This document shows, one piece after another, positions 7,508-61,011 of a DNA stretch of 64,000 bases. The stretch comes from Halolamina sediminis (lineage in GTDB: Archaea > Halobacteriota > Halobacteria > Halobacteriales > Haloferacaceae). The translations under genes and the position numbers were made by a program. The notes beneath the pieces are model-generated. The model saw only the letters and a program-made list of their open reading frames with translations. It did not search any database and was not told the origin of the DNA. Within the stretch, counting starts at the first letter, position 1. Each line of letters begins with the position of its first letter. The DNA is taken from positions 62,001-126,000 of the forward strand of contig NZ_CVUA01000001.1 of the NCBI RefSeq assembly GCF_001282785.1. The letters run 5' to 3'.

Positions 7508-7798
7508 CAACAGCATCTCGACGCTAGACCACTTGCGACCGCAGGGTGCCGGGCACGAGGCCCGGCACAGCGCCGAGTCCCCACCCCTCCCCCCGCGAGC
7601 GCCGTAATTGGCGCTCGCGAGGCGTCCACCGCGACCGCACCGCGGCCGCGGTGGCGCGTGACGTGAGCGCCTCCGTGCGCGAACGAGCGCGCGAGGGACG
7701 AGTGAACGACCGAAGGGAGTGAACGAGTCGGCTGGGGAGGAACGAGGGCTGTGCGGGGCGGTTGCGGTCACAAGTGGCCAAGCATCGAGCTGCTGTTG
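7508..7798 (+). repeat. Structured dispersed element, copy A
   Basis: Copy A occupies most of the 462-base convergent gap between the oxidoreductase and methyltransferase genes. The left end CAACAGCATCTCGACGC.. and the right end are imperfect inverted repeats of about 36 bases. Inside lie the hairpin GTGCCGGGC-acgag-GCCCGGCAC, the invariant block GAGTCCCCACCCCTCCCCCC, a hairpin GAGCGCC-gtaatt-GGCGCTC, then GCGAGGCGTCCACCGC, a short GCGCG stem and the G-rich right arm. This is the shortest copy: it lacks the two extra hairpins seen in copies B, D and E. A degraded unit similar to the right end follows to about 7840. The strand given is the arbitrary orientation with the C-rich block first. Confidence 0.85.
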
Positions 7799-7890
7799 CC
7801 GTCGGTGCCGAAGGATAGAACTGCTGTTACCGCCCTGCCGAAGAGAAGAAAGACCCCAGCCAGCGCAGTTCCTACCGAAAAGCCCGCTAA

Positions 7891-8568
7891 TCAGGGCGCG
7901 ACACCGACCGTCAGCAGCGTTCCCCACGTCCGGTAGCGCTCGACCATCGCCTCGCGACTCCCGAACCCCTCGTGGGGGAACTCGGACTCGTCGGGGATCT
8001 CCGTCTCGCGGTCCGGAACGTTGTCCTGCTCGGCGACGTGCAGGCCGGCGTCGCGGAACGCCTCGCGGTACTGCTGGCGGTCCCAGCGGGTCATCTCCAC
8101 CGAGATGTTCTCCTGCCACTCGTGGGAGGCGGTGTTCTCCTCGTAGTAGTTCACCGCACAGTAGAACGTCCCGCCGGGTTTCAGCACGCGCCGAATCTCC
8201 TCCAGCGTGCGGTGAGGGTCGTTCGCGTAGTAGAACGCCTCCATCGAGAAGACGTGGTCGATCGAGTTCGTGGCGAACGGCAGGTGGTCGAAGTCGCCGA
8301 CGAGGAAGCCGACCGCGTCGTCGTCGGTGTAGCCGTCGGCCTTCCGCGCCATCTCGGGCGAGCCGTCGAACCCGTAGGCAGCGTCGATACCGCGCTCCCG
8401 GAGGGCTCGCAGCGCGTAGCCGCTGCCCGTCCCGAGGTCGAGCACAGTGTCCGCCGCCTCGACCGGGATCCGTGCGAGGATCGGTCGCGCGGTGTGCCAG
8501 TGACGCTCCTCCATCCCCTGTTCGCGGCCCTCCGCAGCCCAGCTGTCGAACTCCTCGCGGACGCTCAT
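7891..8568 (-). CDS. SAM-dependent methyltransferase (class I)
   Basis: A 225-residue Rossmann-fold methyltransferase. Motif I is VLDLGTGSGYALRAL (about residues 42-56). The acidic ribose-binding loop follows (AYGFDGSPEM), then motif II-like GDFDHLPFATNSIDHVFSMEAFYYANDP and motif III-like RRVLKPGGTFYCAVNYYEEN. This is the UbiE/COQ5-like arrangement, and the substrate cannot be named. The C-terminus (REAMVERYRTWGTLLTVGVAP) suggests dimerisation rather than an extra domain. The ATG at 8568 is divergent from the gene at 8689, with 120 bases between them. Its stop lies 92 bases from the right end of repeat copy A. Confidence 0.9.
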   Translation of the reverse strand: MSVREEFDSWAAEGREQGMEERHWHTARPILARIPVEAADTVLDLGTGSGYALRALRERGIDAAYGFDGSPEMARKADGYTDDDAVGFLVGDFDHLPFATNSIDHVFSMEAFYYANDPHRTLEEIRRVLKPGGTFYCAVNYYEENTASHEWQENISVEMTRWDRQQYREAFRDAGLHVAEQDNVPDRETEIPDESEFPHEGFGSREAMVERYRTWGTLLTVGVAP

Positions 8569-8688
8569 GGTCGTGCTTGGAGCGTGGCGGGCAAAACGGG
8601 TTCGGCTCCGGGCTGGGCGCTCCGGGACCAGTCGACGCTGTGGGGCAGGCGCCGCGAGTTTGAAGTCGTCGCCGCGCTACTACCGGAT

Positions 8689-9273
8689 ATGGAGTACGAC
8701 CTCGCCATCGACGGCGCGCCCGAGAGCGTCTCGGCCGGGACCGCGCTACTGCTGCTACACCCCAGCATCGGGGAGACCGACCGCGTCGACACCGACTTCC
8801 TCAGCGTCGACACCGACCGCTTCCTAGTCGTCTCGACCCGAACCACCGCTCGCGAGGTCGAACAGAAACTCGACTACTACGAGGTCGAGGAGTCGCGGGC
8901 GGAGATCCTCGACACGCTCTCGATCGAGCGGGGCTACTCCCGGCGCTCGGCGCCGCACGTCCACTACGCTGCCGGCCCGGACGACGTGGAGGGGATCGTC
9001 GAGCAGGTCGAGGCGTTCCTCACCGAGAACGACGGGAAGCGCCGGATCACGCTCGACTCGCTCAGCGAACTGGCGTACTACGGCGACGAGGCGGCCGCGC
9101 TGGAGACTGCCGAACGACTGATCGAACTGGTACGCGAACACGACGCCGTCTGCCTGTTTCACCTTTCCAGCGAGGTCCACGACGACGAGACCGTCGCCGC
9201 GTTCGCGGAACTGTTCGACGCGACGGTCCGCCTCCACGACGACGGGACCGTGAGCTACGAACCGCAGGAGTAG
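8689..9273 (+). CDS. Degenerate RecA/KaiC-fold protein of haloarchaea
   Basis: A 194-residue protein with alternating beta and helical segments like the RecA/KaiC core. The site of the P-loop reads ALLLLHPSIGETDRVDTDF, which lacks GxxxxGK[TS]. It therefore probably cannot hydrolyse ATP. A FLVVSTRTTAREVEQKLDYY segment resembles the strand-helix after Walker A in KaiC-like proteins, and CLFHLSSEVHDDETVAAFAELFD resembles the late core strands. I recall related haloarchaeal proteins named HTR-like. The role is unknown; binding partners among working KaiC-like ATPases would fit. The ATG at 8689 starts EYDLAIDGAPESV. Confidence 0.72.
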   Translation: MEYDLAIDGAPESVSAGTALLLLHPSIGETDRVDTDFLSVDTDRFLVVSTRTTAREVEQKLDYYEVEESRAEILDTLSIERGYSRRSAPHVHYAAGPDDVEGIVEQVEAFLTENDGKRRITLDSLSELAYYGDEAAALETAERLIELVREHDAVCLFHLSSEVHDDETVAAFAELFDATVRLHDDGTVSYEPQE

Positions 9274-9318
9274 GGCAGGGACGGCGTTCTCGCCGTCGTC
9301 GGTTAGTCGTTTCCACTC

Positions 9319-9628
9319 GAGACACCGAGACAGCGGTGTGGCTTCCGTTCCAGTCGAAACGAAGAGTGGAGTCGAAAGAGCCGAAACGGTTCGTGCAGTC
9401 GAAACGGATGGTAGAGTCGAAACGGGAGAGTGCAGTGGAAACGGAGAGTGCAGTGGAAACGGATGATAGAGTCGAAACGGGAGAGTGCAGTGGAAACGGG
9501 GGAAACAGTCGAAGAGGGACGCACAGTCGAAAGAGAGGGAGCAGTCGAAACGCAGCCTCCACTCGAAACAGTGAGTGTACTCGAAACACCGAGCGCACTC
9601 GAAGCACCAAGTGGACCCGAAACGCTCC
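9319..9628. repeat. 18/9-bp minisatellite with CGAAAC core
   Basis: This fills the 359-base gap between two genes. The tetramer GAAA/GAAG of an [A/C]GTCGAAACnG-like unit occurs at 9356, 9374, 9383, 9401, 9419, 9438, 9456, 9474, 9493, 9502, 9511, 9529, 9547, 9565, 9583, 9601 and 9619. Spacing is thus almost always 18 or 9 bases, with three 19-base steps. A first unit with GAGA sits at 9319. Because of the 19-base steps no reading frame is kept through the array, so it is not coding. The core resembles the TCGAAAC centre of the origin boxes 3 kb away but lacks their G run. Confidence 0.85.
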
Positions 9629-9632
9629 GCCG

Positions 9633-10415
9633 CTACTCGGCGAGCGAGTCGATCGTCTTCTCCGCCCACTGGACCGCGTACTCGGCGCCGTGATCCCGGT
9701 AGGCAAGCGTATCAAGCGCCGCGAACGGCGCGGGTAGATCGAGGCCGTGTTTCAGCGCCGAACACGCCAGCTCCGTCGCCGCCGGGAACTCCGTCTCCCC
9801 GCGGGCGACCTCGCCCGGGAGGTCGTCGATCCGGCCGACGAGGCGGTCGCCGGCGTCCTCCCACGCGGCGTGGAGTTCGTCGTGATCGCCTTCCCACGCG
9901 CGGAACCGCTCGCGGGTGTGCAGGCCGACCCACGCGTCGAACAGCGCGGCCGCGATCTGGTACGTCGCGGTGCCGCCGAGCCCGAGTGCGTCGTCGAGTT
10001 CGGCGTACTGCTCGCCAAAGAAGGGGAGGAAGCTCTCCGGAACCCCCTCCTCGATCTCCACCAGCGCCTCGGCGACGAGGAAGTCGCGGAACGACGCCGG
10101 GGTCGTCTCGGCGCGGGCCTTGACGAGCACCGTCGGCGGCTGGGTCTGCTGTGTCCGGACGACCGTGCCGTCACCCGGAAGGCCGATGGTGAACTGCTCG
10201 GAGGCGTACGCTTCGAGCTGTGCGGGCGTGTTTTCGGGCAGCCACGTCTCGGGGTAGCTGGCGGGATCGAGCGACTCCACGAGGAGGCCCAACTCCTCCG
10301 CGACCGCCGGCGGGAGCGTCTCGAAGTCCCGCTCGGTGTCGAGAACGAGCACGTCGGGCGTGATCTCGCTGTGCAGTCGCTCGACCGCCGGCGAGAGCGT
10401 CCGCTCGGCGAACAT
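9633..10415 (-). CDS. Uncharacterised haloarchaeal protein (DUF7089-like)
   Basis: A 260-residue acidic cytoplasmic protein that I cannot assign to a known enzyme. Residues 1-60 (FAERTLSPAVERLHSEITPDVLVLDT) look like a small alpha/beta segment. The rest is helical, with blocks SFLPFFGEQYAELDDAL and AAALFDAWVGLHTRERFRAW that look like a buried helical bundle. Start and stop overlap by one base with the 30-residue membrane peptide gene upstream (ATGA), so the two are probably translationally coupled. The closeness to the origin cluster may be chance. It ends next to the minisatellite. Confidence 0.75.
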   Translation of the reverse strand: MFAERTLSPAVERLHSEITPDVLVLDTERDFETLPPAVAEELGLLVESLDPASYPETWLPENTPAQLEAYASEQFTIGLPGDGTVVRTQQTQPPTVLVKARAETTPASFRDFLVAEALVEIEEGVPESFLPFFGEQYAELDDALGLGGTATYQIAAALFDAWVGLHTRERFRAWEGDHDELHAAWEDAGDRLVGRIDDLPGEVARGETEFPAATELACSALKHGLDLPAPFAALDTLAYRDHGAEYAVQWAEKTIDSLAE

Positions 10416-10507
10416 CAGGCCGAGAGGACGATCTGGAAGACGAACGCGAACGCCAGAAGCGCCGACAGGCCGACTGTGCTGGTGACGATCTTCGTCGCCG
10501 TGCTCAT
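10415..10507 (-). CDS. 30-residue single-pass membrane peptide
   Basis: ATG at 10505-10507 and TGA overlapping the ATG of the next gene. The product begins MSTATKIVTSTVG and then has a hydrophobic stretch SALLAFAFVFQIVL ending S-A, one predicted transmembrane helix. The one-base overlap with the downstream gene and the clean hydrophobic profile argue that it is real. No enzymatic motif is possible at this size. It may anchor or regulate the product of the coupled gene. Confidence 0.7.
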   Translation of the reverse strand: MSTATKIVTSTVGLSALLAFAFVFQIVLSA

Positions 10508-10594
10508 AGCACCATCTGCGACCGCGTGGCTGTTAACGGTTGCTGAAGCGGTCGGGGTGGGAGAAAGGGATGGGGAGGGTCGGGGGACGGACAC

Positions 10595-11389
10595 CTACTC
10601 GTCGATACCGTAGTCGTCGGCCATCTCGATCACGTATCGGCCGTCCTCCTGGAGCGAGATGATGTACTCTTTCCGGTCGTACAGCTCCATGAGGTTGAGT
10701 TCGTACTGGCCAGGAGCGGTGATCTTGATGCTCTCGAACTGGTCGTTCAGCTCCTCGCGCAGCGCGCCGAGATCGGCGTCGTCGTCGGTCTCCGGCTCCT
10801 CGTGTTCGGGGGCCGAGCCCGCGACGGGTTGTTTCTCGACCGGGTCGTCGTCCTCGGGCCCGACCGCGCCCGAGATATCGAACTCGTCGGGAGAGACGTC
10901 CGAAGGAGTCTCCGTCGGGGGACCCTGCGGCGTCCCACGGGCGGGGGAGTTGGCCTCCGAGGATTCCGCCTCAGCCTCGGTCATCGTCCGGCGAGCCTCG
11001 TCGATCTCGTCGACGCTGGCCGACGAGGAGCGAGCGTCGGTCTGTGCGCGGTCCTCCGAACCGCCGGGGTCGACCTCAGCGCCGAGATCGCCCTCGGGTT
11101 CTGGGGGCTCCGGCTCGGCTGATTCCGCTGGCTCGGCGGATTCAGCAGATCGGGGATCAGCAGGTTCGGGGTCTGGCGACTCGGTGTCAGCCGGAGTGGC
11201 GTCGCTACTCGTCGCGGACGGCTCGGCATCGGCCGGAGTGGCGTCGCTGCGCGTCGCGGACGCCTCGGCGGTGTCGCGGCCGGCCGGCTGGAACTGGAAC
11301 TTGTTCCCGCCGCAGTTCGGACAGCCCGACAGCATCTCCTTGGAGCCGTCGTCGAACTGCCGGCCGCAGGTGGTACACTCGTGGGGCAC
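10595..11389 (-). CDS. oapC: Origin-associated zinc-ribbon protein OapC
   Basis: A 264-residue protein with an N-terminal zinc ribbon (CTTCGRQF ... GCPNCGG, about residues 5-27). It is followed by a long low-complexity acidic, Pro/Ser/Glu-rich linker (about 40-190) and a conserved C-terminal domain (ELNDQFESIKITAPGQYELNLMELYDRKEYIISLQEDGRYVIE split by turns). The start codon is GTG at 11387-11389, fixed by PHECTTCG and by the four-base gap to oapB. The oapC-oapB-oapA order beside orc1 and an origin is a conserved haloarchaeal arrangement, hence the name origin-associated protein. The biochemical role is not established. The linker DNA contains tandem imperfect repeats (encoding AxxSDATPAD units). 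Confidence 0.85.
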   Translation of the reverse strand: MPHECTTCGRQFDDGSKEMLSGCPNCGGNKFQFQPAGRDTAEASATRSDATPADAEPSATSSDATPADTESPDPEPADPRSAESAEPAESAEPEPPEPEGDLGAEVDPGGSEDRAQTDARSSSASVDEIDEARRTMTEAEAESSEANSPARGTPQGPPTETPSDVSPDEFDISGAVGPEDDDPVEKQPVAGSAPEHEEPETDDDADLGALREELNDQFESIKITAPGQYELNLMELYDRKEYIISLQEDGRYVIEMADDYGIDE

Positions 11390-11393
11390 GGGA

Positions 11394-11783
11394 CTACTTG
11401 CGCGAGACGAGCGCGCTGATCAGGTTCTCGTCCTTGTGGAGCGTCTGGATCTGGTTCGCCGGGCCGATCACGGTGAGCTTCTGGGTCTGCTCTTCTTTCC
11501 CCATCAGCCGGTCGAACAGCCCAGGGTTGCTCGAACTCGACTTGGGGTAGGTCTCGATCTCGATGCCGCTGAACTCGTCGGGGCTGATCTCGGTCATCGT
11601 CACCTCGATCAGCTTCGACTCCTCGTCGGGGGTGAGCCCCTCCTCTAAGATCACGATGTTGCCGTCGCGGACGCCGTCGAGGATGAGGCGGATCTTCTCC
11701 ATGCTGGTGAGTCCCTCCATCCGGGCGCCGCTGATCATGTCGACCCGGACCCCGTCGCCGTCGCCGCTGGTTACTTCGGGCAT
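11394..11783 (-). CDS. oapB: Origin-associated protein OapB (DUF2073)
   Basis: A 129-residue DUF2073 protein. The conserved start is VRVDMISGARMEGLTSMEK, followed by KIRLILDGVRDGNIVILEEGLTPDEE. The C-terminal part is LTVIGPANQIQTLHKDE. The family is found in euryarchaea next to an Era-like GTPase and, in haloarchaea, beside the orc1-linked origin. Its function is unproven; roles in replication and in RNA metabolism have both been considered. It lies two bases downstream of oapA and four bases upstream of oapC, so it is the middle gene of a three-gene operon read away from the origin. Confidence 0.9.
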   Translation of the reverse strand: MPEVTSGDGDGVRVDMISGARMEGLTSMEKIRLILDGVRDGNIVILEEGLTPDEESKLIEVTMTEISPDEFSGIEIETYPKSSSSNPGLFDRLMGKEEQTQKLTVIGPANQIQTLHKDENLISALVSRK

Positions 11784-11785
11784 TG

Positions 11786-12427
11786 TTAGGAGAAGTACTC
11801 CGCGATTTTCTCGTACACTTCGTCCATGTTCTGTCCCTCCAGTGCCGACAGGGGAATCGTCTCGTGCTGGGGGAACGCGTTCGCGATGCGCTGGATGTCC
11901 GACTCCTCTTTGTCGATCTTGTTCGCGAGGATCAGCACCGGGAGCTCCTGACTCTCGATGATGCCGATCAGCATCGTGTTCACCTGCGTGAACGGGTCCT
12001 CGGTGCTGTCGAGCACGTAGATCACGCCGTCGACGTCCTCCCGGAGCCAGTGCATGGCTTCGGCCACGCCCTCGGTGGCCTCGCGGGAGCGCCGGACGGC
12101 GTCCTCTTTCTCCATGTCGTGGTCGAGGAACTCCTCGTAGTCGACCTTCGTCGCGACGCCGGGCGTGTCGACGATGTCGATCGTAACCTCTCGGCCGTCA
12201 CGCTCGATCGTCACGTCCTCCTTCCGGCGTGCACGCCGGGTCTCGTGGGGGATGTGACTCTCCGGGCCCACCGCGTCGCCGGTCCAGTCGCGGGCGATCC
12301 GGTTCGCCAGCGTGGTCTTCCCGGCGTTCGGCGGGCCGTATATCCCGATCCGTTTCGGCTCCTCCGATGCGAACAGGCCGTCCGTGACCCGCGTAATGCT
12401 TTGTTTCAGATTCGTGAGCAGACCCAT
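11786..12427 (-). CDS. oapA: Origin-associated Era-like GTPase OapA
   Basis: A 213-residue GTPase of the TRAFAC/Era type. G1 is GPPNAGKT at residues 31-38, G3 is DTPG near residue 88, and G4 is NKID near residue 175. An amphipathic N-terminal helix (LLTNLKQSITRVTDGLF) may mediate membrane or partner contact. No KH domain follows, unlike bacterial Era. It is the first gene of the oapABC operon and faces away from the replication origin. Its promoter has TTAAGTATATC at about 12484-12494 and the mRNA would have a short leader with a hairpin (12439-12460) and a purine-rich GGAGATAAGG just before the ATG. Confidence 0.93.
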   Translation of the reverse strand: MGLLTNLKQSITRVTDGLFASEEPKRIGIYGPPNAGKTTLANRIARDWTGDAVGPESHIPHETRRARRKEDVTIERDGREVTIDIVDTPGVATKVDYEEFLDHDMEKEDAVRRSREATEGVAEAMHWLREDVDGVIYVLDSTEDPFTQVNTMLIGIIESQELPVLILANKIDKEESDIQRIANAFPQHETIPLSALEGQNMDEVYEKIAEYFS

Positions 12428-12438
12428 CCTTATCTCCT

Positions 12439-12460
12439 GCTCCCTGTGGCGGTAGGGAGC
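12439..12460 (-). promoter_or_regulatory. Hairpin in the oapA leader, with upstream TATA box
   Basis: GCTCCCT and AGGGAGC are separated by eight bases and form a 7-bp stem that ends about 12 bases before the oapA start. It lies downstream of the TATA-like element at 12484-12494, so it would be in the mRNA. Haloarchaeal genes are often leaderless, which makes a leader with a stem and ribosome-binding purines (GGAGATAAGG) notable. Translational control is possible but unproven. Confidence 0.5.
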
Positions 12461-12663
12461 GGTTACACCGAGTTCCGCCGGCGATATACTTAAGAATGGC
12501 GTCGAGCAGGGTGAGGCGTTCCGACCGCAGACGACGCCCTCCCCGATCGAAAACCGCGTTCCGAACCGTCGAGAGGAAACGGAGGGTCGACGGGAGGAAC
12601 CGGAGGCGCACTGACGTAGCGGGGGGCGACGAACCGAGACTCGCTCAGTATCAGTAAGTGGGC

Positions 12664-12690
12664 GTTTCCAGTCGAAACAGTGGTGTGGGG
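12664..12690 (+). promoter_or_regulatory. Origin recognition box, left cluster, forward
   Basis: GTTTCCAGTCGAAACAGTGG followed by TGTGGGG. The core plus G run points toward the AT-rich region. It is the initiator binding site furthest from orc1. Confidence 0.75.
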
Positions 12691-12784
12691 TTAGCGAAAC
12701 GGGCTTCGGTTGAGATGATCGTCAGGTGAGAACGGCTGAACCTACCGTTCGGCGGGGTTCGGCTCTCGAGAGAGACACCGAGCA

Positions 12785-12812
12785 ACCCCCTCCCCATCGT
12801 TTCCCGTGGAAC
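12785..12812 (-). promoter_or_regulatory. Origin recognition box, left cluster, reverse
   Basis: On the minus strand GTTCCACGGGAAACGATGGGG followed by AGGGGGT (quoted in two parts). It faces the first box, so the left cluster is an inverted pair about 95 bases apart. Confidence 0.75.
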
Positions 12813-12852
12813 AACGAGACAGTCCGGGGTGGGGGTAGCGAGCTGGCCGACA

Positions 12853-12950
12853 GAAACACAACTAACCACACAACTCCACGTCTAAATAAAGAAGATAGAT
12901 TGCAGTACGGACTAATCTATCGTCGTATGATGTAAAACTACTGCTCGACA
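12853..12950. other. AT-rich duplex unwinding region of the origin
   Basis: This is the only strongly AT-rich stretch in the first 40 kb. It includes TCTAAATAAAGAAGATAG and, further on, CTAATCTATCGTC and ATGATGTAAAAC. It lies between the left (12664-12812) and right (12975-13051) box clusters, as expected for the site of initial strand opening. Confidence 0.8.
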
Positions 12951-12974
12951 GAGGGCAGTATCTGCCGGTTCTTA

Positions 12975-13051
12975 CCCCCCACCCCCACTGTTTCCGCGTT
13001 CCACCCGAAACGAGGGGGTGGGGGGGGGTCACGACCCCACCTCCGTTTCAC
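12975..13051. promoter_or_regulatory. Overlapping inverted origin boxes with long G runs
   Basis: Three boxes are packed together: reverse at 12975-13003, forward at 12998-13028 with a run of five then nine G interrupted by T, and reverse at 13034-13051. The first two overlap through GTTCCACCC, so their G runs point outward in opposite directions. These are the longest G runs in the window. Confidence 0.8.
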
Positions 13052-13252
13052 GTCGACCGCGGATCGACCCCGCACATCGATCGGCGCCATCACCCACTTC
13101 CACACTCAGTTGACCTCTCTGCACCCGAAGCGATGGCTGCGTGTAAGTCGCTCGGTAGCACCCCCAGTTTCACGTGCATCGACGCCCGGCGATCCTCGGT
13201 GGCCAGCTCCACGAACTGGGCACTCCTCGTCGAACTTCCCACCTGGGGCTGA

Positions 13253-13272
13253 TCCACTCGAAACAGTGGGGT
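13253..13272 (+). promoter_or_regulatory. Origin recognition box, right cluster
   Basis: TCCACTCGAAACAGTGGGGT, forward. It shares CGAAACAGTGG with the leftmost box and lies 235 bases before orc1. Confidence 0.7.
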
Positions 13273-13479
13273 ACGGAGGCAGCGATACACTGACTGAAAA
13301 CGACTCGGGACGACAATCGTCGACACAACTCCCCAGCAGATCGAGCCGACAGGGACAGGTTTTTGGTACCCCTATTCATTTGGTTCGAGTGCATCAACTG
13401 GACGGCGCTCCGGAACGTCTCCCGTGAGATCGCGTCTTGCAGCGGGTCACGTGCCGGATATACCGGTCCCGAGTGCCGT

Positions 13480-22867: not shown

Positions 22868-23216
22868 CAACAGCATCTCGATGCTAGACCACTTGTGACC
22901 GCAGTGCGCCGGATATGGAGTCCGGCGCAGCATCAAGTCCCCACCCCTCCCCCCGCGGCGGCCGACTGTCGGCCGCCGCGAGGCGTCCACCGCCACCGCA
23001 CCGCGGCGGCGGTTGGCGCGCGACGTGAGCAGGGCGGGACCGGCGGTCCCGCTGGCAGTGCGGGCGACGCGTGGGTCGCCCGCACGACGCCTCCGTGCGC
23101 GAACGAGCGCGCGAGGGACGAACGACCGCAGGGAGTGAGTCGGCTGGGGAGGCCTGAGGGCTGTGCGGGGCGGTGCGGTCGCAAGTGGTCTAGCTCACTC
23201 CGCGGTCCTGTTCGCA
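22868..23216 (+). repeat. Structured dispersed element, copy B
   Basis: It lies in the 567-base gap between hisA and hisB. The left end CAACAGCATCTCGATGCTAG is complementary to the right end through GCTAGACCACTTG. Internal hairpins are GCGCCGGA-tatggag-TCCGGCGC, a 12-bp palindromic stem GCGGCGGCCGAC/GTCGGCCGCCGC, GCGGGACC-ggc-GGTCCCGC and GTGCGGGCGAC-gcgtgg-GTCGCCCGCAC. The core blocks are as in copy A. The right flank AGCTCACTCCGCGGTC is shared with copy E but not with A, C or D. Nothing else is recognised between the element and hisB. Confidence 0.85.
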
Positions 23217-27862: not shown

Positions 27863-28154
27863 CAACCGCATCTCGTTCGTAGACCGCTTGTAACCGCAGT
27901 GTGCCGGACACCAGGTCCGGCACAGCCCCGAGTCCCCACCCCTCCCCCCGCCGGCCCCGACCGATGGGGCCGGCGAGGCGTCCACCGCTACCGCACCGCG
28001 GCCGGCGGTGGCGCGAAGCGCACGCGGCATCGTGCCGCGTGTCAGCGCGAGGGATGAGCGAGTGAGCGGAGCGAACGAGCGAATCGGTTGGGGGAGGCCT
28101 GAGGGCTGTGCCGGGCGGTGCGGTTACAAGAGGTCTAGCGTCGAGACGCCGTTG
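27863..28154 (+). repeat. Structured dispersed element, copy C
   Basis: It fills the 409-base convergent gap between the sulfatase and polymerase D genes. The terminal stem shows a compensated change: TTGTAACCGCA on the left pairs with TGCGGTTACAA on the right, where other copies have GTGACC/GGTCAC. Internal hairpins are GTGCCGGAC-accag-GTCCGGCAC, GCCGGCCCC-gaccgat-GGGGCCGGC and a copy-specific CACGCGGCA-tcg-TGCCGCGTG. The C-rich block, GCGAGGCGTCCACCGC and CCGCACCGC are invariant. The right arm has CCGGGCGGTGCGG where others have CGGGGCGG. No other feature was found in the gap. Confidence 0.85.
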
Positions 28155-44779: not shown

Positions 44780-45127
44780 CAACCTCATCTCGTTCGTCGA
44801 CCACTTGCGACCGCAGTGTGCCGGACACGAGGTCCGGCACGGCACCGAGTCCCCACCCCTCCCCCCGCGAGCGCCAAGGTGGCGCTCGCGAGGCGTCCAC
44901 CGCCTCCGCACCGCTGCCGGCGGTGGCGCGCGACGTGAGCAGGGCGAGACCGAAGGTCTCGCTGGCCGTGCGGGCGACGCGTGGGTCGCCCGCACGACGC
45001 CTCCGTGCGCGAACGAGCGCGCGAGGGACGACCGACTGAGCGGAGCGAAGGAGGAAGTCGGCTGGGGAGGTGTGTGGGCTGTGCGGGACGGTGCGGTCAC
45101 AAGGTGCCAACGATCGAGATGCTGTCG
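44780..45127 (+). repeat. Structured dispersed element, copy D
   Basis: It lies in the 573-base gap between the cupin start and the epimerase stop. The terminal inverted repeats run CAACCTCATCTCGTTCGTCG.. against ..ATCGAGATGCTGTCG. Hairpins are GTGCCGGAC-acgag-GTCCGGCAC, GAGCGCC-aaggt-GGCGCTC, GCGAGACC-gaa-GGTCTCGC and GTGCGGGCGAC-gcgtgg-GTCGCCCGCAC. The third has A/T pairs where copy B has G/C, a compensated change. Core blocks are as in the other copies; the right arm has GTGCGGGACGGTGCGG. The short remainder up to 45200 holds a T-rich stretch only. Confidence 0.87.
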
Positions 45128-55391: not shown

Positions 55392-55456
55392 GAAAGCGGT
55401 TCTGCCGAGATCTGTGGCTGGCGGAAGATCTGCTGTGCGTCGACAAGTATCGGCGG

Positions 55457-55464
55457 TATATTTA
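55457..55464 (+). promoter_or_regulatory. TATA box of the small AT-richer gene
   Basis: GGTATATTTACG has TATATTTA 28-35 bases before the ATG at 55492. It is one of the clearest TATA boxes in the window and supports that start. Confidence 0.65.
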
Positions 55465-55491
55465 CGCCGATATTGTTCGATTAGACGACTA

Positions 55492-55833
55492 ATGACCGAT
55501 TGGGAAGGTGTGAGACAGGAGCTCGAAGAGGCGGGCTATTCTGGATTCGAGTTCGATAGCGGCGATACGGCCGTGCCGGGACTGTCCGGTGAGTGGGTAT
55601 CCGGAAACATCCCACGCGAGGGAGGATTGAAACACGAGAACCAATCGCTTTTGATACGGGTTCTCGACGGGCTACCGAGGGGTGGTGCCGTGGATGCTGC
55701 TCCAGAAAACGCCCCGGAAAGCATACGCAACATCGCTACTCAACACGGGCTGGAAGTCATCATCATTGGCGTCTCTGCCGACGAGGCACGTATCGCACTT
55801 TGTGAGTCCTCGGAGCGAAGCGCATCTGCGTAA
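55492..55833 (+). CDS. Uncharacterised 113-residue protein, AT-richer
   Basis: Starts TDWEGVRQELEEAGYSGFEF and has an alpha/beta pattern ending LEVIIIGVSADEARIAL. No Cys cluster, membrane span or catalytic motif is visible. Codon use is clearly less GC-biased than in msrA or the downstream hydrolase (many A/T third positions), which suggests recent transfer together with the next gene. A strong TATA box supports expression. Function unknown; the small size and the second gene being a membrane protein make a two-gene cassette possible. Confidence 0.75.
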   Translation: MTDWEGVRQELEEAGYSGFEFDSGDTAVPGLSGEWVSGNIPREGGLKHENQSLLIRVLDGLPRGGAVDAAPENAPESIRNIATQHGLEVIIIGVSADEARIALCESSERSASA

Positions 55834-55882
55834 CGGTAAGTTCAGCCGAACGGTTTAATTGGTCAAACGTCTGTTAGTACGT

Positions 55883-56176
55883 GTGAACTCAGTTCGCCGG
55901 ATACTGTTTCGTGAGCCAGATGGACGGCGAAAGGCGCTCCTTTTCTCACTCCTCTCCGTCGTTTGCCTCCTCGGCTGGGCGTATTTCGGCATTGTACTCG
56001 ACGGCCCTCACAATATGCTCTTTTTGGGTATCGCGTTCGCATTCACCGGGGTAGCCGAATCTCTTCCGCCGACCCGACAGCGTTCAGCAGGCGTACTTCG
56101 AATAGTTGGCCTCGGTGTCCTGATCGTCTTCCTCGGTCTCCTCATACTGGCTCCTGAAGTAATCTGGGCTGAGTGA
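55883..56176 (+). CDS. Small membrane protein, AT-richer island
   Basis: A hydrophobic protein of 97 residues from a GTG at 55883, or 105 residues from a TTG at 55859. The GTG is preferred because TTTAATT at 55854-55860 lies about 26 bases upstream, the spacing for a leaderless start. After a basic N-terminus (RRILFREPDGRRK) come three hydrophobic segments: ALLFSLLSVVCLLGWAYFGI, MLFLGIAFAFTGVAES and IVGLGVLIVFLGLLILA. Function unknown. Codon use matches the AT-richer gene just upstream. The region 56177-56271 holds nothing recognisable. Confidence 0.68.
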   Translation: MNSVRRILFREPDGRRKALLFSLLSVVCLLGWAYFGIVLDGPHNMLFLGIAFAFTGVAESLPPTRQRSAGVLRIVGLGVLIVFLGLLILAPEVIWAE

Positions 56177-56271
56177 GTAGAGTCTGTTTTGGGAAGTACG
56201 CAATCCTCCCTACCGGCTGTTTCACTACAGATGGTCTCGAACAGACTTGGAGTTGAATATAGCCAAGATGG

Positions 56272-56919
56272 CTACTGTTCTAGCCGCCTCAACAGCTCTT
56301 CCCGCAGTTCCTCGCTCCCGACACAGATCACGTCACACGCCGAGAGATCGGTCCCCGCGTTGTGGTCGACACGGTACCCGACGACGACCATCCCCGCCCG
56401 TTCGGCCGCGAGCGTGCCGTTCCGTGAGTCCTCGACGGCGACGCAGTCCGCCGGATCGACACCCAGCCGTTCGGCGGCCGTCTCGTAGATGTCGGGTTCG
56501 GGCTTCCCCGGAGCGTCGATTTCGTCGTTCGAGAGGACGAGGTCGAACTCCAGACCGAACCGATCGAGCACGTACCTCATCCACGTCGGCGGCGACGAGG
56601 AGACGAGCCCGACCGGAACGCCGGCGTCGCGGGCGCCGTCCCGAACCGCCGCGAAGCAGTCGAGCAGTTCCACTTTCTCCCGGTAGACGGTCTCGGCGGT
56701 CTCGTCGTACAGGTCGACGAACTCGGCCTTCGACACCCGCGTCTCGTAGTTCGCGTCGAGGTAGTCGTAGATCTCGCGGTACGGCATCCCCGTGATCTCG
56801 TCGAGGTCGGGCAGTTCCCCGTCGAGTACCTGCGGGAGTAGCTCCTCCCGCTCGGCGGGGTGCCAGTAGTCCTCGGAGTCGACGACGACCCCGTCCATGT
56901 CGAACAGCAGCGCGTCCAT
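56272..56919 (-). CDS. HAD superfamily hydrolase (phosphoglycolate phosphatase/beta-PGM-like)
   Basis: A 215-residue HAD hydrolase. Motif I is LLFDMDGVVVDSEDYWHPAE with nucleophile Asp and acid/base Asp. Motif II is VGLVSSSPP, motif III the Lys of GKPEPDIYETAAERLG, and motif IV is VAVEDSRNGTLAAERAGM. The cap between motifs I and II (EITGMPYREIYDYLDANYE) is the helical subtype I form. The substrate is a small phosphometabolite that cannot be specified. The start at 56919 gives MDALLFDMDG. Confidence 0.92.
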   Translation of the reverse strand: MDALLFDMDGVVVDSEDYWHPAEREELLPQVLDGELPDLDEITGMPYREIYDYLDANYETRVSKAEFVDLYDETAETVYREKVELLDCFAAVRDGARDAGVPVGLVSSSPPTWMRYVLDRFGLEFDLVLSNDEIDAPGKPEPDIYETAAERLGVDPADCVAVEDSRNGTLAAERAGMVVVGYRVDHNAGTDLSACDVICVGSEELREELLRRLEQ

Positions 56920-57000
56920 GATCGCCGTACTGGTGCCCGCGTCATCGTGTTTGGGGTTTCGCGCCGACGCTCAAGGCCGATGCCGGGACCACTCCCGCGC

Positions 57001-57768
57001 GTGACCGACCGGATCCGACTGTTCGCGGGCGACTGCACGATCGAGTTCGAGGGCGAGCGCGAGCGGACCCAGCGCGGCTACGTGGTCGTGGTGGTGAAGC
57101 CGGACCGAACCGTGCTGGTCCACGACGCCGGCGGCTATCAGCCCGTGGCGTGGCTCACCCGCGCCGACGAACTGACGACCGAGACCGAGGGCGACTCCTT
57201 CGCGATCACGGCCCGGAGCGGCGAGCAGGAACTTCGTGTGGTCTCGGAGGCACCGACGGGCCGTCGGGAGTACCCCGCGAGCGAGGCGGGCGTGCCGCTT
57301 GGCGACTGTCCTGACTGCGGCGACGCGCTCGTCCGATCGAGCGGGGAGGTGACCTGTCTGGGCTGTGACGCGGCCTACGGGCTCCCCGCGGGGGCGACGG
57401 TGCTCGACGAGACCTGCGACGACTGTGGGCTGCCGCGGATGTGCGTCGAGCGCGGCGAGACGTTCGAGCTCTGTGTGGACTGGCGGTGTGACTCGCTGGC
57501 CGACATCGTCGCCGACGCGCTCGACGGCCGGTGGGACTGCCCCGACTGCGGCGCGGCGCTCTCGGTGGTGAACCGCGGGAACCGCCCGTTCCTCGGCTGT
57601 GACGCCTACCCCGACTGCGAGACGACGTTCTCGATCCCGGCGGGCGAGGCGGTTGGGGAGTGTCCCTGCGGGCTGCCGGTGTTCGAGACGGCCACGGGGC
57701 GGCGGTGTCTGGACGGGACGTGCGATCGCTACCGGGAGGGGGTGGTCGACGGCTGCGCCGGCCCGTGA
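57001..57768 (+). CDS. DUF91 (NucS N-terminal-like) protein with zinc fingers
   Basis: A 255-residue protein. The N-terminal half (IRLFAGDCTIEFEGERERTQRGYVVVVV.., broken here) resembles the N-terminal beta domain of the NucS/EndoMS DNA endonuclease, but the nuclease half is absent. In its place are several Cys-rich segments: CPDCGDALVRSSGEVTCLGC, CDDCGLPRMC and then CPDCGAALSVVNRGNRPFLGC, the last like a topoisomerase C4 zinc finger. It should bind DNA, perhaps branched or single-stranded. The start is GTG at 57001, matching TDRIRLFAGDC in relatives; an ATG 21 bases upstream is less likely. Catalysis is not expected. Confidence 0.85.
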   Translation: MTDRIRLFAGDCTIEFEGERERTQRGYVVVVVKPDRTVLVHDAGGYQPVAWLTRADELTTETEGDSFAITARSGEQELRVVSEAPTGRREYPASEAGVPLGDCPDCGDALVRSSGEVTCLGCDAAYGLPAGATVLDETCDDCGLPRMCVERGETFELCVDWRCDSLADIVADALDGRWDCPDCGAALSVVNRGNRPFLGCDAYPDCETTFSIPAGEAVGECPCGLPVFETATGRRCLDGTCDRYREGVVDGCAGP

Positions 57769-57816
57769 TCGGGGGCGATCACAGCCCCTATACCCGCCGC
57801 CCCGGGACGTAGCCCC

Positions 57817-58851
57817 ATGGACGGGACGCTTCGCGACGGCGTGGTCCGACTCTCGGGCGACGCCAAACAGCGGTTCTACGACTCCGGGGGGTACGGCCGC
57901 CCGGCCGGCGGGAGCGACATCGAACTCGCGCCGGTCGAGGCCGCCCACCTGCTCTACCGCGGCGATCTCGACGCGGTCACGGGGGAGGACGGCACCTCGA
58001 TGGGGTTCCGCGAGTTCCTCACCCGGACCGACGCGGTGCTCTCCTTCGTCGTCTACAAGGACCTCCGCGATCGCGGCTTCTACCTCTCGCCGGCCCGCGA
58101 GGGCTGGGTCGACGACTCGGTCGACGACGCGACGGACTTCGTCGTCTACCCGCGCGGGAAGGGCCCCGCGGACGACGAGATCGCCCACCGGCTCCGGGTC
58201 GTCGGCGAGCGTGCGCCGCTGTTGGCGGCGAGCGTCGACGAGCACGTGCTCGCAATCGTCGACGAGGACGGCGAACTCACCTACTTCGGCACGGAGTGGC
58301 TCTCCCCGTCGGGCACTGCGGACCCGCCGCTGCCCGACTCCCTCGACGCGACGCTGATGGACGACCGGCTGCTGGTCTGGGAGCCGCCAGAGGAACTGTA
58401 CGAGGGCGGCTTCTTCGGGCAGCGACTGGCGGGGCGAAACGCCGACTCGGGCCCGCTCCAACTCTCGCTGCTGGAGGCGGCGTACCTCGCGGATCGGGGT
58501 TCGCTGGAACTGGATCTCGCGACGGTGCAGGGCCACGCCGAGGCGATCGAGGGCGAGCGGTTCCGCCGGCGCTACGCGGCGTACGAGTCGCTGCGGGCGG
58601 CGGGCGCGGTGCCCAAGTCCGGGTTCAAGTTCGGCGCGGACTTCCGGGTGTACGAATCGTTCGACGGCCTCTCGGATCTGGGCCACTCGGACAAGCTGGT
58701 CCGGGTCGTGGAGCCGGACCACGAGTTCCTCCCCCGGGAGCTGTCACTCGACGTACGGCTGGCCGGCGGGGTTCGCAAGCGAATGGTTTTTGCGCTGACC
58801 GAGCCGACTGGGGAGATAGATTGGCTCTGCGTCGAGCGAATCACGCCGTGA
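57817..58851 (+). CDS. endA: tRNA-splicing endonuclease EndA
   Basis: A 344-residue protein of the fused homodimeric (alpha-2) type, in which two endonuclease repeats lie in one chain. The catalytic repeat is C-terminal: SGFKFGADFRVYESFDG with the general-base Tyr, GHSDKLVRVVE with His, and VRKRMVFAL with Lys. The N-terminal repeat (residues 1-170) keeps the fold (FVVYKDLRDRGFYLSPAREG) but lacks the triad. The enzyme cuts bulge-helix-bulge introns from pre-tRNA and rRNA. trpS follows after 19 bases, so they are co-transcribed; the haloarchaeal trpS partner is fitting, because tRNA-Trp is the classical intron-bearing tRNA. Confidence 0.97.
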   Translation: MDGTLRDGVVRLSGDAKQRFYDSGGYGRPAGGSDIELAPVEAAHLLYRGDLDAVTGEDGTSMGFREFLTRTDAVLSFVVYKDLRDRGFYLSPAREGWVDDSVDDATDFVVYPRGKGPADDEIAHRLRVVGERAPLLAASVDEHVLAIVDEDGELTYFGTEWLSPSGTADPPLPDSLDATLMDDRLLVWEPPEELYEGGFFGQRLAGRNADSGPLQLSLLEAAYLADRGSLELDLATVQGHAEAIEGERFRRRYAAYESLRAAGAVPKSGFKFGADFRVYESFDGLSDLGHSDKLVRVVEPDHEFLPRELSLDVRLAGGVRKRMVFALTEPTGEIDWLCVERITP

Positions 58852-58870
58852 GCAGCGGCGAGGACCACCG

Positions 58871-60472
58871 ATGACCGAGGACCAACCCACACCGAAGACA
58901 GACGGGGGCACCGATAGCGTATCGAGCGACGACGTCGCCCTCGACCCGTGGGGCTCCTCGACCATCGAAGACTACCCGAAGCTGTTCGAGCAGTTCGGGA
59001 TCGAGGAGTTCGACGCCGAGGAGGTGCCGGAGCCGCACTACCTGATGCGCCGCGGGGCGATCTTCGGCCACCGTGAGTACGAGCGCGTGGCGGAGGCGAT
59101 GGCCAACGACGAGCCGTTCGCGGCGCTGTCGGGGTTCATGCCGACGGGCGATCCCCACATCGGCCACAAGATGGTGTTCGACGAGCTCATCTGGCACCAG
59201 CAGCAGGGCGGCGAGGTGTACGGCCTGATCGCCGACCTCGAAGCCCACTCCGCCCGGGGGATGTCCTGGGACGAGATCGACGAGCACGCCCGGAGCTACC
59301 TGCTCTCCTTCATCGCGCTGGGGTTCGACCCCGAGGCGGGGGAGCTCTACCGCCAGTCGGACAACCGTGTGCTGCAGGATCTCGCGTTCGAGATCGGCTC
59401 GACCACGAACTTCTCGGAGTTCGAGGCGATCTACGGCTTCGGCGGCGAGACGAACGTCAGCCACATGCAGTCGGTCGTGACGCAGTTGGCGGACATCCTC
59501 TACCCCCAACTGGACGAGCCGATGCCGACGGTGATCCCGGTCGGGCCGGATCAGGACCCGCACGTCCGCTTCGCCCGCGACGCCGCCGCGCGGATGCGCT
59601 ACTTCAAAGTGACCGAGGCGTTCGCGAGCTTCGAACTCGACGACGAGGAGCGTGCGCTGTTTCGCGACCTGTACGACGCGCTGCAGGCGACCGACGACGT
59701 GGACACCGACGACCTGCGGTGTGAGGACGCCGCGGAGCGCCTCCTCGCGTTCGTCAACGATCCCGCGGCGCCCGTCGACGCCGACCCCGCGACCCGAGAC
59801 TCGCTGGTCGAGAAGCTGGAGAACGGCGGGAAGGAGCCGATCCGCCCCCGCGTGCGCTTCCTCGACCGCAACGCGAACGCGGCGGCGTTCGACGCGCTGA
59901 TAGAAGAGATCCCGGGCGAGAAGCGGCGCTACGACGCCCACATCGACAGTTTCGACCTCGACCCCGAGGCGGCCCAGGAGATCGCCCGCGAGGTCGAGAT
60001 CGAGCACGACGGCTACGGGTTCGAGGCGCCGTCGTCGATCTACCACCGCTTCATGACCGGCCTGACCGGCGGGAAGATGTCCTCCTCGATCCCTGCCTCC
60101 CACATCTCGCTGCTCGACGACCCCGAGGACGGCTACGACAAGGTGAAGTCCGCCGCGACGGGCGGCCGGACGACCGCCGAGGAGCAGCGCGAACTCGGTG
60201 GGAAGCCCGACGAGTGCCCGGTGTACGAGCTGTACGCCTACCTGCTCGCGGAGGGCGACGACGAGTTCGCGACCCGGGTGTACGAGGAGTGTGCCGAGGG
60301 CGAGCGCCTCTGTGGCGGCTGCAAGGAGCAGGCCGCCGAGTTGATGGCGGAGTTCCTCGAAGACCACCAGGAGAAGCGGGAAGAGGCGAAGGAGCTGCTC
60401 GAGGACGTGGACATCGACTTGAGCAGTGATCGGCGCGGGCTGGGCGGGCGGGAGGAAGAGGACGCGGTTTAG
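58871..60472 (+). CDS. trpS: Tryptophan--tRNA ligase
   Basis: A 533-residue class I synthetase. The HIGH motif is GDPHIGHKMVFDE and KMSKS is GGKMSSSIPAS. The Trp-binding side includes the VIPVGPDQDPHVRFARD block. Between the two signatures is a charged insertion of about 85 residues (LDDEERALFRDLYDALQ onward) typical of haloarchaeal forms. A C-terminal Cys set (CAEGERLCGGC) may hold a metal. Haloarchaea often carry two trpS genes; this is the one linked to endA. Repeat copy E begins 84 bases after the stop. Confidence 0.97.
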   Translation: MTEDQPTPKTDGGTDSVSSDDVALDPWGSSTIEDYPKLFEQFGIEEFDAEEVPEPHYLMRRGAIFGHREYERVAEAMANDEPFAALSGFMPTGDPHIGHKMVFDELIWHQQQGGEVYGLIADLEAHSARGMSWDEIDEHARSYLLSFIALGFDPEAGELYRQSDNRVLQDLAFEIGSTTNFSEFEAIYGFGGETNVSHMQSVVTQLADILYPQLDEPMPTVIPVGPDQDPHVRFARDAAARMRYFKVTEAFASFELDDEERALFRDLYDALQATDDVDTDDLRCEDAAERLLAFVNDPAAPVDADPATRDSLVEKLENGGKEPIRPRVRFLDRNANAAAFDALIEEIPGEKRRYDAHIDSFDLDPEAAQEIAREVEIEHDGYGFEAPSSIYHRFMTGLTGGKMSSSIPASHISLLDDPEDGYDKVKSAATGGRTTAEEQRELGGKPDECPVYELYAYLLAEGDDEFATRVYEECAEGERLCGGCKEQAAELMAEFLEDHQEKREEAKELLEDVDIDLSSDRRGLGGREEEDAV

Positions 60473-60556
60473 GTCGGAGTTTCGTTCGTCTCGTTTTTCG
60501 TCGGTATCGCCGACGGCACGGCTACGAACAGTACTGCGGGGTTCGGTGCTTGGGTC

Positions 60557-61011
60557 GCGAACACGACCGCGGAGTGAGCTCGACCACTTGTGACCGCACC
60601 GCCCCGCACAGCCCTCAGACCTCCCCAGCCGACTCACTCCCTGCGGTCGTTCGTCCTCCGAGGGAGCGGAGCTCCCTCGTGCCCTCGTTCGGTTCACTCA
60701 CGAGGACCTCGCGCGCTCGTTCGCGCACGGAGGCGTCGTGCGGGCGACCCACGCGTCGCCCGCACTGCCAGCGAGACCGCCGGTCTCGCCCTGCTCACGT
60801 CGCGCGCCAACAGCCTCAGCGGTGCGGTGGCGGTGGACGCCTCGCCGGCGCCAATCGCCGGCGTCACCAGAACGCAAAGCGTTCTGGTTGGCAGCCGAGA
60901 GTCGAAGACTCTCGGCGACGCCCGCGGGGGAGGGGTGGGGACTCGGTACTGTGCCGGACCTCGTGTCCGGCACCCTGCGGTCGCAAGTGGCCAAGCATCG
61001 AGATGCTGTTG
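60557..61011 (-). repeat. Structured dispersed element, copy E (expanded)
   Basis: The largest copy (455 bases), inverted relative to A-D, between trpS and the pheST leader. Read on the minus strand it begins CAACAGCATCTCGATGCTTG and ends with AGCTCACTCCGCGGTC, like copy B. The variable site holds a multibranch set: GCCGAGAGTC-ttc-GACTCTCGGC, CCAGAACGC-ttt-GCGTTCTGG and GCCGGCG-attgg-CGCCGGC, with GGCGTC and GACGCC able to close the first two. It also has GCGAGACC-ggc-GGTCTCGC, GTGCGGGCGAC-gcgtgg-GTCGCCCGCAC and an extra CGAGGGAG-ctccg-CTCCCTCG near the right end. Core blocks are conserved. Bases 61012-61126 hold a degraded end unit and no gene. Confidence 0.87.

Follow-up and report, generated by a model that had tools for sequence, protein, structure and literature searches.

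Folded non-coding intergenic repeats with a conserved core in haloarchaea

Five copies of a structured element in one stretch of the Halolamina sediminis genome are members of an intergenic repeat family, non-coding and folded, that is found in about half of the sampled haloarchaea and whose shape is conserved. The core of the element has covarying pairs and an identifiable folding strand, it is spread across the class, and in related genomes the sites are shared, with copies in inverted orientation at some of them and empty joints at others. We give about an even chance to the reading that this is a haloarchaeal mosaic repeat resembling the REP/BIME elements of bacteria. New sites would be seeded rarely by a trans-acting enzyme whose substrate is either the ends or the single strand in its folded form; in these polyploid cells, gene conversion and recombination of the RadA type may later overwrite copies, and could also swap hairpin modules and flip elements via their inverted ends. 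Selection would retain the core at some sites, probably since the copy there became useful to the host. Counted against the REP/BIME-like reading are that no mobiliser, no target-site duplication and no recent burst were found, and that conservation of the core at the radB/phoU site points to a host function.

The window is the whole 64-kb stretch of DNA that was analysed. The earlier note described five intergenic copies in it, with a common order of blocks and hairpins, and all five were recovered at the positions given in Table 1 as multi-hairpin repeats of 291–455 bp. The near-invariance claimed for the C-block GTCCCCACCCCTCCCCC also holds, this block being exact in all five copies; allowing up to three mismatches there was a single further match in the window (three mismatches), with shuffled sequences giving 0.57 matches. 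The G-block GGCTGTGCGGGGCGGTGCGGTC was present with no more than three mismatches in 4 of the 5 copies, copy 1 having one extra base. The common order is kept overall, except in copy 3, where a hairpin of different sequence stands in for the GTGCGCGAACGAGCGCGC stem and the right block reads ATCGGTTGGGGGAGG.

Table 1. Positions of the five composite copies and their parts in the window
Feature	Copy	Position	Strand	Remark
Composite	1	7508..7798	+	between convergent genes
C-block GTCCCCACCCCTCCCCC	1	7577..7593	+	exact
Class-wide core (model R1)	1	7653..7750	+	88.1 bits
Composite	2	22868..23216	+	
Left terminal inverted repeat CTAGACCACTTGTGACCGCA	2	22884..22903	+	
Hairpin H1	2	22905..22929	+	
C-block	2	22937..22953	+	
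Hairpin H2	2	22954..22980	+	stem letters vary between copies, pairing maintained
Class-wide core (model R1)	2	23096..23162	+	62 bits
G-block GGCTGTGCGGGGCGGTGCGGTC	2	23159..23180	+	
Right terminal inverted repeat TGCGGTCGCAAGTGGTCTAG	2	23174..23193	+	
Composite	3	27863..28154	+	variant core hairpin; between convergent genes
C-block	3	27932..27948	+	
Class-wide core (model R1)	3	28010..28107	+	84.2 bits
Composite	4	44780..45127	+	
C-block	4	44849..44865	+	
Class-wide core (model R1)	4	45006..45080	+	69.2 bits
Composite	5	60557..61011	-	two-hairpin module inserted in H2, plus optional hairpins
C-block	5	60926..60942	-	
Class-wide core (model R1)	5	60610..60700	-	47.1 bits

Pairing between the C-rich and G-rich blocks, proposed earlier, also appears in the predicted fold; it lies outside the reach of covariation because both blocks hardly vary. 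When folded as RNA, copy 2 gave z values of −6.8 (+ strand) and −7.4 (− strand). Across the H. sediminis genome we counted about 70 places, made up of 67 matches to the core covariance model (R1, E ≤ 0.01) and three further C-block sites. This is one per 40.5 kb, and the extrapolation from the window to a few hundred per genome was too high. The C-block with at most one mismatch occurs at 47 sites (33 exact), the reversed control giving 0. The window holds 5 copies where 1.6 were expected (P = 0.02); the densest 64 kb anywhere in the genome has 6, a value reached in 58% of simulations, so the window is not unusual genome-wide.

The earlier note treated the composite of Halolamina as the repeat unit. 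What recurs across the class is the ∼100-nt core, which in Halolamina is enclosed by hairpins and inverted ends. The covariance-model search that had been proposed as a check was run on this core and gave many matches with covarying pairs: 70 of 145 genomes of the class, from 32 of 58 genera, have the core (E ≤ 1e-3), with between 0 and at least 28 copies per genome among the up to 28 candidates scored in each. The exact C-block, by comparison, was present in only 5 of 391 class genomes, H. sediminis included, all of them Halolamina. In a broader collection of genome contigs it was found in 70 stretches, 17 from Halolamina; the remaining 53, from many taxa, were taken as chance matches. One core-rich genome (G122) also carries the core inside palindromic composites with inverted ends, in another form. 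There, 10 of 20 cores form head-to-head pairs (shuffled rate 2.5%), several with inverted ends, and none of 41 cores outside this genome has an inverted core pair upstream (61 of 64 loci used). Outside Halolamina and some of the G122 copies, inverted ends are not general.

In order, the core fold comprises a closing stem that bears a variable hairpin, a helix in which tandem G·A and Watson–Crick doublets alternate, and GTCGGYTGGGGAGG. In alignment A1 the core ends are GGCGCG and GTCGGYTGGGGAGG, and neither a GTAG nor a CGTC tag flanks the stem there. The tandem G·A helix was analysed in 61 of the 73 rows of alignment A2 and in 35 of 41 Halolamina cores, drawn from 69 Halolamina copies. Over the stems of the core, changes on both sides were seen at 9 of 14 pairs, with 106 double-changed cells compared to 26.9 after shuffling; structures slid along the alignment gave 2–14 cells, and on each of five measures 0 of 500 shuffles reached the observed value. 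Such an excess can arise from relatedness without structure, yet the slid controls were far lower. In helices 1–4 there were 71 GU wobbles against 18 of the mirror mismatch AC; therefore, one given strand of the core folds. The core behaves as a single-strand fold; the ends and outer hairpins have the appearance of palindromic DNA, with wobble nearly absent from H1 and one terminal-repeat base varying independently.

A tentative alternative, though a serious one, is that the element is a functional RNA: the + strand of the core would be transcribed with a neighbouring gene and fold near mRNA 3′ ends, where it would define or protect the 3′ end or separate convergent genes, the copies being numerous since they are useful. 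The covariation of the core stems favours this, as does strand-specific wobble at the GAY/RTC pair (24 UG, 0 CA; a separate count on overlapping loci gave 7 TG and no genuine CA in 69 rows, three of them dismissed as off-target). Core selection at the radB/phoU site, where conservation of the core (96.9%) exceeds that of the flanking genes, likewise points to a host function and keeps an RNA-level role a serious rival. A same-site pair (L164/L165) with flanks 92.7% identical and a core only 76.5% identical has kept the core while its stems were exchanged, with pairing preserved as read from the sequences. On the other side, three cores folded in isolation reached z values of only −0.5 to −1.6, no TATA-like enrichment was seen in the 150 nt upstream of 72 cores, TTTTT was absent within 80 nt downstream of 70 cores, and H1 is almost free of wobble. 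Nor is there a match in Rfam 15, whose families have a covarying conserved secondary structure as this one does: the window has none at gathering scores, in line with the earlier note, and ten sampled loci gave none at E ≤ 0.1 except one tRNA.

Gene placement bears on the RNA reading in both directions. No predicted gene (simple gene caller) overlaps the C-block and its next 100 bases in any of 47 H. sediminis copies; 19 of these lie between convergent genes, 24 between co-directional genes and 4 between divergent genes. The scarcity of divergent spacers (4/47, compared to 15/59 gene pairs in the window; Fisher P = 0.04) fits a role at gene 3′ ends. In contrast, the depletion is not significant class-wide (8/52, P = 0.24), where 22 loci are convergent and 22 co-directional; this set is what remains of 64 loci after removal of 7 in which no core was recognised and 5 lacking a flank, and contains one Halolamina copy (L170). 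The co-directional copies have no sense bias (11 sense and 13 antisense in H. sediminis, 11 and 11 class-wide), which rules out a simple sense-strand 3′UTR element. A more doubtful proposal combines the RNA and repeat readings: the core may be a functional nucleic-acid domain of a new kind, shared across the haloarchaeal class, with a helix in which tandem G·A pairs and exchangeable Watson–Crick doublets recur periodically. It would work as RNA at the 3′ ends of genes and would also seed repeats that spread and, through gene conversion, overwrite each other; a single stretch of non-coding DNA would then combine a selected host function with a copying element.

To return to the REP/BIME-like reading, all five window sites are occupied in the sister species G073 and G240, with 2 of the 10 copies inverted, and short empty joints are seen at window sites in three other genomes (G089, G279 and G391). 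At the copy 1 site there is a ∼70-bp empty joint in G089 and G279 and an inverted copy in G240; at the copy 4 site there is a 6-bp gap in G089 and G391, an inverted copy in G073 and a short form with no core in G190. The gaps at site 3 (G279, G391, G190) and site 2 (G190) are excluded from the empty-joint reading. The ten same-site pairs are 80–86% identical, which is the paralogue level: the 1081 copy pairs within H. sediminis average 84.4%, with a maximum of 92.7%. Five of the ten are slightly above the mean, two rank first, and the H2 stem differs in all ten. An insertion in the C-block is present at sites 1, 2 and 4 of G240; a 29-base probe of it matched exactly at 6 places in G240 and nowhere in H. 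sediminis, and at 2 places in G073 with 2–3 mismatches (8 places in total; the close inspection covered the three that are window sites).

That copies at the same site are scarcely more similar to each other than paralogues are, and that one insertion recurs at three G240 sites, suggests that copies overwrite one another. We infer homogenisation with some reserve, since with looser gaps the identities of 11 same-site pairs at window sites (81–90%) overlap those of 6 G240 paralogue pairs (85–89%) and some same-site pairs exceed the mean; repeated insertion at hot sites could give the same picture. As the highest identity is only 92.7% and there is no recent burst, present movement is unproven and the empty joints are possibly losses. 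In the comparison of Halolamina loci, BLAST pieces below 200 bases were ignored; the 22 loci from other Halolamina genomes were picked by the exact C-block, so the conservation of that block in them is not evidence.

It is unlikely that the element is a MITE of the classical kind, in which a DDE transposase moves a non-autonomous DNA transposon by recognising its inverted ends. Halolamina copies do have terminal inverted repeats, conserved as sequence and not as pairs (in the 37 of 69 copies aligned, position 4 varies independently: 14 Watson–Crick, 9 GU, 14 AC), and the same site is occupied in some species and empty in others. However, an exact inverted word of at least 11 bases bounds only 4 of 53 cores class-wide (53 of 64 loci used), there are no near-identical copies among the 1081 pairs, and the target-site duplication named earlier as the sign of mobile DNA was not seen: 4- to 8-mers in 44 of the 69 copies fell within the range of shuffled pairings.

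We consider it improbable that the element is a double-stranded DNA site for recombination, pausing or nucleoid binding, recognised as a palindrome and with no single-stranded function. One copy lies at a rearrangement breakpoint in G073, the ends are conserved as sequence, and H1 and H2 are near-perfect Watson–Crick palindromes. In H1, 605 of 613 pairs are Watson–Crick and 5 are wobbles (65 of 69 copies, 9 of which, judged by their arms, have inserted-module hairpins and not H1); in H2 the figure is 578 of 624 (55 of 69 copies, excluding those with modules or missing hairpins). Against this, the tandem G·A and the wobble occur on one strand only, and the complementary strand would not form them.

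A title and abstract search of the open literature, from which most subscription journals are missing, returned no published description of this repeat and no haloarchaeal paper for six exact block strings. If REP/BIME is taken loosely to mean palindromic units that are scattered through intergenic space and often form inverted pairs, the family is of that kind. According to the available text on the bacterial GTAG and CGTC families (PMC3733652), these too are short palindromic intergenic units, mostly between convergent and unidirectional genes, with head-to-head pairs, alternative complementary stem residues and GT pairs in stems, and the CGTC families seemingly also have no dedicated transposase. 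The haloarchaeal family differs from them in being archaeal, with half of the tested core-rich genomes lacking Y1, in its ∼100-nt core with two hairpins, a tandem-GA helix and ends lacking GTAG, and in its long inverted composites, whose hairpin modules can be exchanged. The REPs of RepRanger, from bacteria and archaea, are likewise repeated extragenic palindromes, although their definition, in the available text, is generic and not of this core, and the main text has no ‘halo’ words (PMC12306157). As available to us, the description of Haloquadratum walsbyi repeats (PMC3119063) covers SMR, MITE and PATE elements, which are non-coding haloarchaeal repeats and include nested ones; the SMRs have inverted ends, show no target duplication and are mobilised in a way described as enigmatic. 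SMR-A is ∼110 bp, however, and SMR copies are commonly >95% identical, unlike the 291–455 bp window copies and the lower identities in H. sediminis; PATEs lack inverted ends, which Halolamina copies have, and are related to IS605 transposons; and no comparable folded core appears among the elements described there.

A repeat family comparable to REPs is thus present in about half of the sampled class genomes, some of them lacking both Y1 transposase and reverse transcriptase, and it has a strand-specific fold and an unusual tandem-G·A helix. In Halolamina, where sites are common to species and sequence is seemingly homogenised between sites, the repeats would read out gene conversion in polyploid archaea. 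With the covariance model, part of the GA-rich haloarchaeal intergenic sequence can be annotated, and whether the element acts as RNA or DNA can be tested directly in species that are in culture.

REPs of the GTAG type are linked to an IS200-like Y1 transposase. Among 8 core-rich genomes, this enzyme (PF01797) was missing in four (G122, G072, G043 and G076), occurred only as broken pieces in H. sediminis and was found in G073, G080 and G115, and this absence or inconsistency rules out REP/RAYT proper. A reverse-transcribed (SINE-like) element is ruled out as well, with RVT_1 in 0 of 15 core-rich genomes. A virus-borne element was also rejected: short blocks occur in 3 and 12 viral contigs, and were taken as chance because the model (E ≤ 0.01) recovered none of these 15. 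The phage search gave no match, and the plasmid search gave four records with partial matches.

The earlier note had reported five copies of a multi-hairpin element (291-455 bp) in the window. All five were confirmed, as was the near-invariance of one block: the 17-nt C-block is exact in every copy, with 0.57 matches expected at ≤3 mismatches. The genome of the window (G000) is a single contig of 2.84 Mb, with the window at C1:62001-126000. It carries the C-block at ≤1 mismatch at 47 sites (reversed control, 0), while R1, a covariance model of the ∼100-nt core within the element, found 67 places at E ≤ 0.01. An R1 match lies ≤500 bases away at 44 of the 47 sites, and the two sets combined make 70 places. 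By tests chosen after this list was seen, the 70 places are unevenly spread, with 25 in the contig's middle half (binomial P 0.02, relatedness ignored) and a mean near position 37 kb (Rayleigh P about 0.01).

The order in Halolamina is inverted end, hairpin H1, C-block, hairpin H2, CCACCGC hairpin, optional hairpins, core, right-hand G-block and inverted end. Exact copies of the C-block were found in 5 of 391 class genomes, including that of the window, all from a single genus. Partial matches on plasmids of other haloarchaea have pieces of the element's right-hand part in common, which indicates that the conserved unit is smaller than the Halolamina element, namely the core. Its motif GTCGGYTGGGGAGG is present in 66 of 145 class genomes (6 matches in total for the reversed control). 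At E ≤ 0.001, R1, built from A1, an alignment of 32 cores, matched at least 70 of these 145 genomes and at least 32 of 58 genera; the E-values are rough, and up to 28 candidates were scored per genome. The covariance search of this genome and other Halobacteria proposed in the earlier note, run here on the core, thus gave many matches with covarying pairs. The repeat is real, class-wide and structured, and no description of it was found in the open literature searched.

Pairing was assessed in A2, an alignment of 73 R1 matches at loci in other genera and on plasmids, which leans toward the modelled structure because it was fitted to R1 and which has 13 rows in loci also used to seed R1. The 14 model pairs show 91.2% standard pairing, 9 of them change on both sides, and there are 106 doubly changed cells compared with 26.9 in shuffles (0 of 500 reach the observed value) and 2–14 in slid-structure controls. 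In the helix before GTCGG, GA steps alternate with paired doublets; by general nucleic-acid chemistry, GA/GA steps would form sheared pairs. The first GA/GA is found in 34 and the second in 33 of 35 Halolamina cores (class-wide, 47 and 41 of 61), and the first doublets are paired in 33 of the 35 versus 13.2 with shuffled halves (class-wide, 40 of 61 versus 18.9). Energy-based folding of three cores alone gave z-scores of −0.5 to −1.6 and did not reveal the GA helix; their complements gave −0.1 to −1.5. The entire copy 2 gave −6.8 on the plus strand and −7.4 on the minus strand, as would be expected of a long palindrome.

Helices 1-4 of the core contain 636 Watson-Crick, 71 GU, 18 AC and 41 other cells, with 11 of the AC cells confined to one pair. 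The GAY/RTC pair is UG in 24 cases and CA in none; in a second count, whose loci overlap, it is CG in 51, TA in 8 and TG in 7, with no genuine CA. The excess of GU over AC, together with UG lacking a CA counterpart, shows that the strand carrying GTCGGYTGGGGAGG is the one that folds. The outer parts look different in kind: H1 has 605 Watson-Crick, 5 GU and 3 AC pairs, H2 has 578, 30 and 15 with 1 other (GU versus AC, binomial P 0.04, relatedness ignored), and one terminal-repeat position, with 14 Watson-Crick, 9 GU and 14 AC of 37, pairs at chance level. On these counts the outer parts resemble DNA palindromes, and the ends resemble sites recognised by their sequence.

Between radB and phoU (named via NCBIfam in one genome), a core is present in five genomes of one genus, each with one or two R1 matches. 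It is 96.9% identical, with 95 of 102 columns invariant; 14 columns were fixed by the search pattern, and 6 of the other 88 vary. The upstream gene (400 bases) is 89.9% identical, the downstream side 91.8% over aligned columns and a 27-base spacer 65-77%. Better conserved there than its flanks, the core is apparently under purifying selection at this site. At L164/L165, another shared site, identity is 92.7% over the flank and 76.5% over the core; as read from the two sequences, stems have been exchanged with their pairing preserved.

Six other Halolamina genomes were used to trace the five window sites. The two flanks of copy 1 are separated by about 54 kb in G073, where the breakpoint falls at the element. 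In ten same-site pairs the flanks are 83-92% and the elements 80-86% identical; five of these pairs exceed the mean identity to the other genome and five fall short of it, the same-site partner ranks first in two, and in G000 comparisons 13-40 of 46 own paralogues are closer than the same-site copy. A comparison with looser gaps gave 81-90% identity for 11 same-site pairs at window sites and 85-89% for six G240 paralogue pairs. The H2 stem differs in all ten pairs. One insertion within the C-block recurs in G240 at sites 1, 2 and 4; a 29-base probe for it matches exactly at 6 places in G240 and, with 2-3 mismatches, at 2 in G073, and is absent from the remaining five genomes, G000 included. 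Given these identities and the shared insertion, gene conversion between copies would be the simplest account of turnover; independent re-insertion at identical sites is a possible alternative. Gene conversion between genome copies is documented in Haloferax volcanii (PMC4056108), and polyploidy in Halolamina isolates (PMC4206341).

Window copies, their sites in other Halolamina genomes (joint lengths are distances between flank alignments) and loci of associated modules
Feature	Position	Occupied	Empty joint
Site 1	7508-7798 (+)	G073; G240 (inverted)	G089, G279: 70 bp
Site 2	22868-23216 (+)	G073; G240	G089: about 20 bp; G279, G391: about 54 bp
Site 3	27863-28154 (+)	G073; G240	
Site 4	44780-45127 (+)	G073 (inverted); G240; G279; G190 (short form without core)	G089, G391: 6 bp
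Site 5	60557-61011 (−)	G073; G240 (remodelled, no C-block, no R1 match at E ≤ 0.01); G089; G279	G391: about 70 bp
Optional hairpin pair	23027-23086; 44937-44996; Halarchaeum plasmid L145:601-658		
Two-hairpin module (H1 or H2)	L006, L009, L013, L015, L016, L027, L029, L133, L140, L141, others		
Second repeat	L143, L149, L150, L156, L158, L165, L167, L169; also L011, L017, L043, L131		

Gene orientations in G000 came from a simple codon-usage caller. Its 47 copies occupy 19 convergent, 24 co-directional (11 sense, 13 antisense) and 4 divergent spacers; class-wide, the 52 copies with both flanks occupy 22, 22 (11/11) and 8. Against the 59 neighbouring gene pairs of the window, divergent spacers are depleted in G000 (P 0.04) and not significantly so class-wide (P 0.24), and convergent enrichment is not significant (P 0.09). 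Neither set gives any sign of a required transcription sense. This placement is similar to that of bacterial REPs (PMC3733652).

The repeat works like a REP/BIME repeat, and we give a mosaic repeat of this kind about an even chance of being the right explanation. Membership tests for the GTAG/RAYT REP family failed. Of the eight core-rich genomes searched for a Y1 transposase, four lack it, three have it and G000 has broken pieces of one; none of 15 core-rich genomes tested has a reverse transcriptase. The folded strand may be RNA or single-stranded DNA. A functional RNA element is less probable than the mosaic repeat: selection at the radB/phoU site favours host function, and the absence of orientation bias and of TATA-like enrichment in the 150 nt upstream of 72 cores disfavours a simple RNA element. 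A MITE is improbable, as a membership test failed here too: target-site duplications, which the earlier note took as a mark of a mobile DNA unit, were looked for in 44 copies and not detected. A double-stranded DNA site, set beside the palindromic outer parts and the single folding strand of the core, is slightly less probable still. Viral contigs share words with the repeat but have no match to R1, and a virus-borne element was rejected.

Composite forms vary. G122 belongs to another family. An inverted partner lies 199-382 nt upstream (≤3 mismatches) of 10 of its 20 cores, and inverted ends bound several of the pairs inspected; the upstream partner was found at 0 of 41 cores outside G122, and a downstream one at 4 of 61. 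From a handful of sequences, we read GCGGTNNNANTGG as a candidate shared end pattern. A two-hairpin module, CGACGAGA..TCTCGTCTGCCAATCAGAAATC..GATTTCTGATGACGG, is sometimes inserted within the arms of H1 and H2, its orientation in H2 being opposite between the 5′ and 3′ arms. For the optional hairpin pair, GAGCAGGGCGAGACC..GGTCTCGCTGGC..GCGGGCGACGCGTGGGTCGCCCGC, another genus provides a match of 84.5%, so this pair may itself be a dispersed module. In copy 3 the core hairpin is of another type, GCGCGAAGCG-hairpin-CAGCGCGAGG, seen elsewhere too (e.g. L126, L130, L135). A second haloarchaeal repeat, with variants of ACTGAAAGGGGC ... GGGGCTTTC and a GA-rich middle of its own, closely follows the core or replaces the element's end in several genera. 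Beyond their inverted ends, many copies (L022, L023 and L203 among them) are flanked by degenerate tandem repeats of ∼30-40 bp, whose unit families vary from copy to copy.
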